Below are positions 6,021-59,108 of a stretch of DNA of 64,000 bases, one piece after another; position 1 is the stretch's first letter; each line of letters opens with the position of its first letter. The position numbers and the translations under genes are program-made. Below the pieces are notes generated by a model. The model was not told where the DNA came from and searched no databases. It was given only the letters and a program-made list of their open reading frames with translations. Source of the DNA: an uncultured cyanobacterium (lineage in GTDB: Bacteria; Cyanobacteriota; Cyanobacteriia; Thermostichales; Thermostichaceae); contig CALFBB010000005.1 in NCBI GenBank assembly GCA_937944885.1, positions 1 to 64,000 of the forward strand. Direction: 5' to 3'.

Positions 6021-6727
6021 TTAGGCTAGACGGGTTCGAGCGAGGTTGAGGATCCCAAGGCGACCCAATCTTCTCTTGCACTCCTCTCTTGCACTCCTCT
6101 GACAAGAAGAGGGATTTGTAAGCAGGGAGTAGTCTGTCGGCCAGGTTCTCAATTCAGCCAAGATCTGTTGCACTGTTCTGCCCCTCACCTCAGCAGCGCC
6201 TAGCAGTCCAGCCTAGACTTCATGAGCAAGAATCTTCCCCTCCAGGGTGTGCGCAGCAGCAGGGGGCAGCTGCAGGGAACAATCAGCTAGATTAGCTGGC
6301 CGTCAGATGCCGACGAGCCTTGCAGGAGATCTGTGACCAGACTCCGCGAACTGAAACGGGTTTATAGGGGTCTGTGGTGGGGCGCAGCCTGGATTGCTCA
6401 AGGGGTCCTGAGGGCTACTAAAAGCCTGGACTCCATGCCAACGTCCGCTAGTTTAGTTGAAGACGTTACCTAATGCCTGCGGAGAAGGTCTGGCGGAGGT
6501 TGGGGAACCACCCCAATGAATCGGGAATCTCTCTCCACATTCCCCAGGGTTGAAGGGAGAGCGTGGGAGGTAAGCCTCGCAACCAGCAGGGCTCCAGAGT
6601 AGCGCATGGGGAGGTCCAGGCAAGGGGAAAGGGTTGACGTAACGCCTGCCCCATCCGGGATCCAACCCCTAAAGGTTGACCCGGTGCGCGGCAAGCCCCG
6701 CCGTACCGCTCGCTGTGCGGGCGCAAA
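6021..6727. other. Gene-free 0.7-kb block with tandem repeat and many stem-loops
   Basis: No convincing coding sequence is present; minus-strand open frames at 6453-6726 have proline- and tryptophan-rich, protein-unlike translations. At 6072-6097 there is a perfect 13-bp tandem duplication (TCTCTTGCACTCC twice). From about 6230 on, perfect short stem-loops succeed each other, for example CAGCT/AGCTG at 6284-6298 and CGTC/GACG at 6301-6315. The densest part, 6480-6720, is listed separately. Confidence 0.6.
6480..6720. ncRNA. Candidate structured RNA of unknown class
   Basis: Successive perfect hairpins are visible. TTGGGG/CCCCAA lies at 6500-6516 and GGGAAT/ATTCCC at 6523-6544. The pair GGTTG/CAACC (6548-6584) encloses GAGG/CCTC (6567-6578). 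GGGTTG/CAACCC spans 6631-6668. A final hairpin occupies about 6682-6708 (CGGT and GCGG pairing with CCGC and ACCG, with an asymmetric bulge). The last one faintly recalls group II intron domain V, but the catalytic triad does not align cleanly on either strand. No RNase P or tmRNA core motif is present. The strand is not determined. It could be a decayed ribozyme or a mobile-element RNA. Confidence 0.3.
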
Positions 6728-8980
6728 CTAACAGGCCGGGGAGGATGTCAAAAGGCCCGTCTGCTGCAAAACCCTCAGTAACTCCGGGATCTGCACCCAG
6801 ACATCTTCTCGATCCAGATCTGGACTGGCCAAAAGGGATACCAAGGCCGGGTCACACACCGGAGCCACCAGCGGGAAATACCTCAGCTCTGCCACCTGGG
6901 CGATGGTCCAGAAGTAGGGCAAGACGGCGTTGCTGGGAAAGATCTCAATCACCAAGGTCTGGGGGCGACAAAAGGCAATGTTGGTCAGACCTGCCCCATG
7001 TAAACCAATCACCACCTCTGCCCCCTGCATCAGGGCAATTTGCTCGGCCAAAGAGAGCTTTTCCAGTTGCACCGACACAAAGCCCAAGGGCTGCAAATAG
7101 GCCAGTACCTCGGCTTCGTTGATCACCCGCCGCCAACGGGCAAAGCGGCGACTGATGTAAAGGCGACGGGATGCGGAGAGAGAGGGGCTACCCTGAACCA
7201 ACTGCCGCAAAACCTCCAGACCTCTGGGGGTAAGACAACCCACCGGGCCAACCCCAGAAGGAACAACTAGGGTGGGGGCCTGCACATGGGATCCCCCCAA
7301 CTGCTCAAAACTGAGAATCCGTTCTAGCGGGATCCCCAAGCTGGCCAAGGTTTGTTGCTGAAAGGGTTTGCCTTGGTAGCCGTGGATAAGAATTGGGATG
7401 GGGCGATTGAGGATCCCAGCCCGGTGCAGCATATCCAGAGCTGGCAAAACATCCACCATCCAGTGAAAATAATTCACTGCTCCCAGAGGCAGCAAGGCTA
7501 TGGGCTGATCCAATCGGATTGGCGCAGGAAGGGAGGGTAAGTCAAAAATGGGATGGTGTTGCAAATGATCTGGCCGATAGTCTTGATCGAGAAACTCCGG
7601 CGGTGGCAAACAGGGGGATAAATCTGTGAGGAGCTCCCCTTGCCGCGTCAAAACTGCACTGGCAAAACTGGCATAAAGATGGCGGGGATAATGGCCAATG
7701 TGGACGGATCCCTGCGGAATCTCCACCACAAAGGTTTCCGGCAAAGGGATCCGCTGTGGGCGTAACTTCTGCTCCAGGCTAGGGATCCCTTCTAGGCCAG
7801 CTATCCTCCCGGCGGAAGACTCCGGCCAAGCAACAGGGTGTAACTGCAAGCTAGCCGCTGCATCCAAGCGATGGTAAACCCCTTCCCCTGTGGCTTGGTG
7901 CCAGGCCCAAGCTGTCAGGTACCCCTGCGTTGGCACCGGCCAAACTTGAGGGCGTAGAGCTTCTGAGCCCGATTGAGGCAGAGCTCCTGCTCCAGAACCC
8001 GATCCAGCAGGGGAGAGCAGGCGTTCTTGCCAAGCCCCATAGAGCACCAGCCAGGGATCTTCGGGCTGGGATCCCCCCTTGCCCCCTGACCCTTGCAGTT
8101 CCAATAGCGACCCTAGGGCGGTACTCAGAGGATGGAGACTCTCCGCCGTCTTTTTTGCTCCAGTCCACCAAGCCCGTAACCACTCCTGTTCTGCTTCTAG
8201 GGCCCGCTGCAGTCGCTCCCGAGCCGCCTTGGCATCTCCCTGCCGGATCAACGCCTCCACCCAGTAACTGTACAAACCCTTGGCCAGAGGATCCCGAGTT
8301 TCCGCTGCCTGGAAGCAAGCTATGGCCTGCTGCGGATCCCCCAAATCCAGCCACACCACCCCCAACTGCACCCAAGGCTCCGCCCAATCCGGGCATAACT
8401 CGGTAGCTTGTTGCAGCGGCCTAACTGCCGCTTGCCAACGTCCCAACTTGAAGAGTGCCAGCCCCCACTGAAAAAAACTCTCTGCTGCCGTTGGATCCCG
8501 TTGACAGGCCCGCTCAAACCAAGTTGCTGCCGAGGACCAAAACCGACTTCGCGCCTGGGTTAACCCGATGCGGCGCATTGCCAACCCTGTTGGAAAAGTC
8601 ACCTCCCCCCCTTCCACAGCCTCCAGCAACTCTAAAAGCTGTTGATACAAGGTGGCCGCCTGCAGCCAATGGCCACCCTGCCACAACCCTTCGGCTACTT
8701 CCTGCAGCCCTCTTGCCAACCGATGGATGGCTACAGATTCCGGGATCCCCACTTCCGTCAGAAGGGCCAACCCCTCCTGCCACGTCAGTTGTGCCTCCAG
8801 TTCTTGACCCAATAGCTGCTGCACTGCCCCAAGGCACCAGTAGAGCTCAGGGGTAGGGGATCCCTGTTCCATTTGCTCTTGTAAGTAAGCAGCCACTTGT
8901 ACGTAGTTCCCCTGCTGCCAGTTCTCACGGATGGCAGCCAACCTCAGCTGGGAAAAAGGGAGCGGCAAAGCGGAATCCAT
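6728..8980 (-). CDS. TPR protein with GT61 (DUF563) glycosyltransferase domain
   Basis: About 750 aa. The N-terminal half is a series of tetratricopeptide-like helical pairs, for example SFFQWGLALFKLGRWQAAVR and AEPWVQLGVVWLDLGDPQQA. The C-terminal half is a glycosyltransferase family 61 (DUF563) domain, with NYFHWMVDVLPALDML and RLYISRRFARWRRVINE. It also has the typical end block MQGAEVVIGLHGAGLTNIAF followed by VIEIFP. Such enzymes transfer sugars such as xylose or GlcNAc in eukaryotes; bacterial members are usually linked to surface polysaccharide, and the substrate here is unknown. The ATG at 8980 (MDSALPLPFSQLRL) starts at the first TPR; a GTG at 9040 would add 20 residues. It is monocistronic, facing away from apcE. 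Confidence 0.85.
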   Translation of the reverse strand: MDSALPLPFSQLRLAAIRENWQQGNYVQVAAYLQEQMEQGSPTPELYWCLGAVQQLLGQELEAQLTWQEGLALLTEVGIPESVAIHRLARGLQEVAEGLWQGGHWLQAATLYQQLLELLEAVEGGEVTFPTGLAMRRIGLTQARSRFWSSAATWFERACQRDPTAAESFFQWGLALFKLGRWQAAVRPLQQATELCPDWAEPWVQLGVVWLDLGDPQQAIACFQAAETRDPLAKGLYSYWVEALIRQGDAKAARERLQRALEAEQEWLRAWWTGAKKTAESLHPLSTALGSLLELQGSGGKGGSQPEDPWLVLYGAWQERLLSPAGSGSGAGALPQSGSEALRPQVWPVPTQGYLTAWAWHQATGEGVYHRLDAAASLQLHPVAWPESSAGRIAGLEGIPSLEQKLRPQRIPLPETFVVEIPQGSVHIGHYPRHLYASFASAVLTRQGELLTDLSPCLPPPEFLDQDYRPDHLQHHPIFDLPSLPAPIRLDQPIALLPLGAVNYFHWMVDVLPALDMLHRAGILNRPIPILIHGYQGKPFQQQTLASLGIPLERILSFEQLGGSHVQAPTLVVPSGVGPVGCLTPRGLEVLRQLVQGSPSLSASRRLYISRRFARWRRVINEAEVLAYLQPLGFVSVQLEKLSLAEQIALMQGAEVVIGLHGAGLTNIAFCRPQTLVIEIFPSNAVLPYFWTIAQVAELRYFPLVAPVCDPALVSLLASPDLDREDVWVQIPELLRVLQQTGLLTSSPAC

Positions 8981-9120
8981 AACCCCGAGGATAGCCTTAG
9001 GGATGAGAAACAGTGTTACAAACTGCAACAACCCTCCCACGTCAGGGGCATCGCCCTAGTATTCTAGGCTTGGCTTCTCCTTCAGGCAGCAATCCTTCTG
9101 GTCCAGGGGTTTTTGCTTGA

Positions 9121-41464: not shown

Positions 41465-41559
41465 GACCTGGGTCCGTGCGGCTCCGACGCCCAAACCGTG
41501 TCAGGATCGGAAGATAGCAGCACCACGGGATGCTCTGAGCAGGCGCGTCAACCCGGGTC
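41465..41559 (+). ncRNA. ffs: Signal recognition particle RNA (4.5S-type)
   Basis: The 95-nt stretch has the SRP RNA domain IV signature: GTGTCAGGATCGGAAGATAG then CAGCACCACGGGATG, compared with the E. coli core GTCAGGTCCGGAAGGAAGCAGC. The ends pair: GACCTGGGT (41465-41473) with ACCCGGGTC (41551-41559), nine pairs with one G-T wobble. The hairpin shape and length fit the short bacterial SRP RNA. A possible -10 box, TACGCT, lies 8 nt upstream. It binds Ffh, whose gene is at 27.1 kb. Confidence 0.9.
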
Positions 41560-41560
41560 G

Positions 41561-41593
41561 CCCGTCATCACCCCGTCATCAACCCGTCATCAC
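41561..41593. repeat. Three tandem copies of an 11-bp unit after ffs
   Basis: CCCGTCATCAC, CCCGTCATCAA and CCCGTCATCAC follow each other without spacing, starting two bases after the SRP RNA terminal stem. Confidence 0.95.
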
Positions 41594-53139: not shown

Positions 53140-54634
<1,495 letters not shown>

Positions 54635-59035: not shown

Positions 59036-59108
59036 GCCTTGCTAGCTCAATGGATAGAGCACCGACCTTCTAAGTCGATGGTTGCAGGTTCGAGTCCTGC
59101 GCAAGGCG
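59036..59108 (+). tRNA. tRNA-Arg (anticodon UCU)
   Basis: A full cloverleaf can be drawn. The acceptor stem pairs GCCTTGC with GCAAGGC, the D-arm is AGCTCAATGGATAGAGC, and the anticodon loop CTTCTAA has TCT at its centre. The T-arm GCAGGTTCGAGTCCTGC is perfect. TCT reads AGA (and possibly AGG) as arginine. A TATAAT-like sequence (ATATAATAAC) lies about 25 bp upstream. No integrase or island follows. Confidence 0.95.

Follow-up and report, generated by a model that had tools for sequence, protein, structure and literature searches.

The gene-free block at 6230–6720 of the window (the whole 64,000-nucleotide stretch of DNA analyzed here) is a composite of an ORF-less element of the IS200/IS605 type (approximately 6158–6568), the DNA at 6569–6675, and a second repeat at 6676–6751, and its true structural signal lies in the 5′ domain (6299–6381), which is seen through covariation in relatives and not through hairpin counts. 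We regard it as somewhat probable that 6158–6568 is a non-autonomous element in which tnpB has been replaced by a four-way-junction RNA domain, yielding a stand-alone guide RNA (reRNA) that would be loaded into TnpB and guide it. In this way, gene-less jumping DNA may make its own guide RNA.

The initial annotation had described the block as a dense array of short perfect hairpins without a protein-like ORF. Both the hairpins (6256–6273, 6284–6298, 6500–6516, 6523–6544, and 6663–6678) and the lack of a protein-like ORF in the block were confirmed, but the density is ordinary: counting non-overlapping hairpins with a stem of at least 5 bp and a loop of 3–12, the block contains 5, versus 3.6 ± 1.85 in all windows of the same size, and 27% of mononucleotide shuffles yield at least 5. 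Folding of the complete 411-nt element is at the level of the shuffles (z −0.40). The suggested relationship to group II introns, HEARO, or another Rfam ribozyme found no backing either, with 0 families recovered at gathering score in an Rfam scan of the block, nothing credible up to an E-value of 10, and no Rfam covariance model matched by the element. Elsewhere in the window, a small SRP RNA, a TPP riboswitch, and one tRNA are located at 41465–41562, 53142–53243, and 59036–59108, respectively.

The end profiles identify 6158–6568 (plus strand) as an IS200/IS605-type element that lacks an ORF and has diverged from its relatives. Its left end (6158–6291) was detected with an nhmmer left-end profile from which the window was excluded (E = 3.7e-7), and the segment comprising the former tnpB 3′ end, the reRNA core, and the right end (6471–6568) with a right-end profile, likewise constructed without the window (nhmmer match at 6471–6564, E = 4.4e-14); the 2 matches are in the correct order and on the same strand. 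Also on the plus strand are a −10-like hexamer, TAGATT (6288–6293), at the site of the TATAAT-like hexamers of family members, the 5′ RNA domain (6299–6381), the first reRNA scaffold motif, GGTGGGGCGCAGCCTGG (6376–6392), which the alignments show to be common to nearly all family members, and approximately 78 nt (6393–6470) that have no counterpart in the aligned relatives and represent either a private insertion or divergence. At the tip, the window copy reads GGGA where the family ends in TCAA (alignment A4). Neither a tnpA or tnpB gene nor any other ORF was found inside the element; hence, the copy is non-autonomous and is classed only as a derivative of IS200/IS605-type elements. Both this element and the second repeat are short, gene-less, and dispersed and carry the ends of a larger element, as do PATEs and MITEs. 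At least 11 further gene-less relatives of the element are present in its own genome. Four short copies in this genome (L014, L015, L016, and L017; approximately 110 bp), which begin with CTACAATGCC and end at GTCAA, consist of the reRNA/right-end segment only.

Both element ends are shared with tnpB-bearing elements of other cyanobacteria (L064, L081, and L085), in which the left-end sequence also lies upstream of tnpB; the tnpB product of L064 contains OrfB_IS605 and Cas12f1-like TNB domains. The core at 6473 corresponds to a former tnpB 3′ end (NACGEGLAEVG versus NACGDVLAGVG), and the segment, judged by sequence homology, overlaps the tnpB 3′ end and terminates at the right end, as a reRNA scaffold does. 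Among the options raised in the initial annotation, an RNA linked to TnpB-type elements is the one supported.

The stretch 6311–6369 matches an element from another family of the same order (L011) and, via L011, a second copy in the window's own genome (L074). Its interpretation as a remnant of tnpB coding sequence was abandoned, as no TnpB protein match was obtained, and was replaced by that of an RNA domain. A degenerate 20-base pattern searched against the genomes of 84,980 prokaryote species recovered 14 stretches, 12 of them in cyanobacteria; where the cyanobacterial matches had enough downstream sequence, the reRNA core came next, in the same order. Chance matches to this pattern are estimated at a handful, and the 2 non-cyanobacterial stretches are estimated to be of that kind. 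A covariance model (R1), seeded with 6 copies, window excluded, that were aligned manually and padded with N, yielded a single match in the 64-kb window, at 6299–6381 on the plus strand (cmsearch, E = 2.7e-8, the short-calibration E-values being rough), where the assignment is further supported by covariation and the local fold. Eleven of 390 cyanobacterial genomes, from 11 different genera, were positive, with up to 3 copies per genome; the weakest of these matches are marginal, and because strict filters were applied, the number for this set of genomes is at least 11. No Rfam match was found for the approximately 80-nt domain, and searches for a phage, plasmid, or viral source returned no match.

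In nearly all full-length copies, the domain directly precedes the reRNA core in a fixed order; 2 loci, L163 and L166, carry the domain with the core hardly or not at all recognizable. A long ORF-less form (L011, L150, L152, L155, L156, and L164) has approximately 120 nt extra between the 5′ domain and the core, a conserved stretch with additional hairpins. In a same-genus genome, a CRISPR spacer (L141:1501–1539; G005:C19:59313–59351), associated with the repeat TTTCCATTAATTCCACTTCCCCGAAGAGAAGCGAG, matches the L011 copy within its 5′ domain (39 nt, 92%), suggesting that the element, or whatever carried it, had been recognized as foreign.

When the sequences are placed side by side, the domain folds into a four-way junction composed of P1, P2 closing on GACG, P3, and P4 with varying tetraloops. 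P1 occurs as GGUAC/GUACC, CAUCGC/GCGAUG, and CACCGG/CCGGUG, and P4 as AGUC-UUCG-GACU, AGCC-GCAA-GGUU, and ACUC-GCAA-GAGU. Across 22 copies, two-sided changes are found in 16 of 25 pairs, 83.5% of the cells pair, and the covariation score is 0.369, whereas shuffles give 0.144 ± 0.014 and slid structures no more than 0.080; this alignment was fitted to the model, and the P1 and P4 variants are also readable by eye in the raw sequences. The domain thus displays the conserved, covarying structure expected of a stand-alone RNA gene. In the 3′ part, 8 of 20 predicted pairs show two-sided changes. Several unpaired letters are strongly conserved, namely, the GACG loop, the UAAC/UGAC loop, and the GAAACGU joint. 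In the window copy, P1 is formed by CAGAU (6304–6308) and GUCUG (6370–6374), a pairing private to this copy that R1 had placed in a different register, and P3 (6325–6345) has 2 compensatory changes, UCUG/CAGA instead of UCCA/UGGA. Folded alone, 6304–6374 has a z of about −2.9 to −3.4, with approximately 1% of random 71-nt windows reaching −3. An unknown structured RNA without an ORF, as initially proposed, is retained on the strength of homologues and covariation, outside Rfam, and not on the hairpin counts from which it was argued.

A TATAAT-like hexamer lies 3–9 nt upstream of the 5′ domain, with TAnnnT conserved in 16 of the 22 copies. The mean −10 score of the family is 4.36, versus 3.15 ± 0.16, a value reached in none of 2,000 draws, and the −35 region is weak. 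The hexamer of the window copy (TAGATT) matches in 4 of 6 letters. Because this promoter-like hexamer is weak, the right-end TCAA has been lost, and the 78-nt insertion is present, full function has probably been lost in the window copy.

The 5′ domain was found in none of 30 tnpB-bearing loci, and all 9 tested genomes carrying the RNA encode TnpB. In 6 of these 9, the best TnpB is 56–83% identical to that of L064, and the ORF-less elements share their left end, the tnpB-3′-end/right-end segment, or both with a tnpB element located elsewhere in the genome. In one genome (G128), the ORF-less and tnpB elements match over 236 bp, beginning just past the 5′ domain. The window's genome, with an assembly approximately 95% complete, contains only a 91-aa C-terminal TnpB fragment (57%) along with TnpBs that are distantly related (near 32%).

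The last positions of the block as initially delimited, 6676–6720, belong to another mobile repeat. This separate 75-bp palindromic, PATE-like repeat (6676–6751, plus strand; TTGAC...GTCAA) has 10 other copies in the genome, 87–92% identical (alignment A1), which are too alike to display covariation, and none was found. The repeat shares one end with a tnpA-bearing element at G000:C39. The ends of G000 contigs C14, C28, C37, C46, and C58 (L115–L119) are breaks inside one multi-copy IS element, which also has one end in common with the 75-bp repeat. The last codons and the stop of a glycosyltransferase-61/TPR gene (6728–9040, minus strand; Pfam) lie within the repeat. The alignment with orthologues in the genus stops at residues 762–763 of 769, and the DNA similarity to relatives ends at approximately 6753–6756, indicating that the repeat supplies the last codons of the gene (LTSSPAC) and its stop. 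The neighbor of the glycosyltransferase gene is not the same in the relatives.

In the reading that we favor, the tnpB upstream of the reRNA segment would have been swapped for a promoter-like site plus a dedicated RNA domain on the 5′ side. Transcription in intact relatives probably begins at P1; beyond the domain and the reRNA scaffold, the transcript would cross the right end and enter the flanking DNA, so that its 3′ tail would be a copy of the insertion site and, from its position, the guide. A related TnpB made elsewhere would load this RNA and, following excision, cut the empty donor site, the repair of which would restore the gene-less element. Here, the guide RNA would have its 5′ end set by a promoter, in contrast to the 5′ end made by TnpB itself. 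Counting for such a stand-alone reRNA are the ends homologous to tnpB elements, the covarying domain absent from tnpB loci, the fixed −10-like site, the presence of tnpB in trans, the covarying pairs of the 3′ part, and the identity of the core as a tnpB 3′ end. Counting against it are the restriction of the domain to so few of the sampled genomes, the weak −35 boxes, the model-fitted alignment, the lack of a full-length cognate TnpB in the window's genome, the lost TCAA and the 78-nt insertion of the window copy, and the fact that tnpB elements make reRNA without a 5′ domain.

Alternatively, the element could be a plain MITE or PATE, recognized as DNA by TnpA, with the RNA incidental and the folds relevant as single-stranded DNA. 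Such elements are already known, as PATEs (PMC3119063) and, as cited in PMC10969869, as MITEs of thermophilic Synechococcus, and the window's own genome contains many gene-less copies that share these ends but lack the 5′ domain (L012, L060, L072, and shorter ones). Nevertheless, recognition of the ends would need neither an 80-nt covarying domain with conserved loop letters nor a fixed −10-like hexamer, and the domain lies inside the element rather than at its tip, and tnpB elements that have these ends lack it, which makes this explanation unlikely in our view. Even less probable is that the 5′ domain is an independent, hitch-hiking RNA, either a ribozyme that cleaves itself or an RNA whose protein partner is not TnpB. 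The conserved unpaired letters do point to tertiary contacts or to a binding site, and L163 and L166 have the domain with little or no recognizable core; however, no Rfam ribozyme family was matched, and in nearly all full-length copies the domain is placed directly before the core, in a fixed order.

That the block is nothing but neutral debris of a tnpB element, functionless in this genome and elsewhere, appears highly improbable. A plain match to a decayed element, which the initial annotation had named as a refutation, describes the window copy, which looks worn, with the loss of its right-end tip and its private insertion in a genome without a full-length cognate TnpB, but not the family, the structure of which is conserved with covariation across genera. 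Moreover, the window copy itself retains P3 through the 2 compensatory changes and has a private P1, and the wear of this single copy is compatible with the stand-alone reRNA reading of the family.

Several known systems resemble the RNA described here in part. In ISDra2, the guide RNA of TnpB (reRNA, or omega RNA) is encoded at the 3′ end of tnpB (PMC8612924), and in tnpB elements TnpB itself generates the 5′ end of the guide RNA from its own mRNA (PMC10278001). The likeness lies in the right-end position, the core derived from the tnpB 3′ end, and a flank-derived tail that would be the guide, whereas here there is no tnpB in cis, and the scaffold comes after a promoter-like hexamer and a separate structured 5′ domain. 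The MITEs of thermophilic Synechococcus are derived from ISSoc2 (Nelson 2012, as cited in PMC10969869), and PATEs are short gene-less elements; like the element studied here, and like the repeat at 6676–6751, which is of the same kind, they are dispersed and carry the ends of larger IS, but they are described as DNA elements, with no conserved covarying RNA domain reported in the portions of these sources available to us. RAGATH-18 was an orphan structured RNA motif later recognized as the guide RNA of IS607 TnpBs (PMC11061315); it lies downstream of its own tnpB, unlike the RNA here, which matches no Rfam family. The omega RNA of IscB (HEARO) is likewise a transposon-encoded guide RNA, but the relatives here are TnpB, not IscB, and HEARO was not matched. 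A literature search of incomplete coverage, in which absence is not proof, turned up no comparable TnpB guide RNA that stands alone. We tentatively suggest, as a possibility that falls somewhat short of probable, that these cyanobacterial gene-less elements, having exchanged tnpB for a promoter and the four-way-junction domain and supplying their own guide to TnpB made elsewhere, constitute a novel class of guide RNA genes that stand alone.

The structured RNA domain is new to Rfam, and its helices are defined well enough for direct testing. TnpB guide RNAs are ordinarily cut out of the tnpB transcript. If the stand-alone reRNA reading is true, an RNA-only element with a promoter-like site and an additional conserved domain would illustrate how a guide RNA turns into a separate gene acting in trans, a parallel to the transition between a cis-encoded reRNA and a guide RNA encoded on its own, and by what means gene-less transposons might escape loss at excision.
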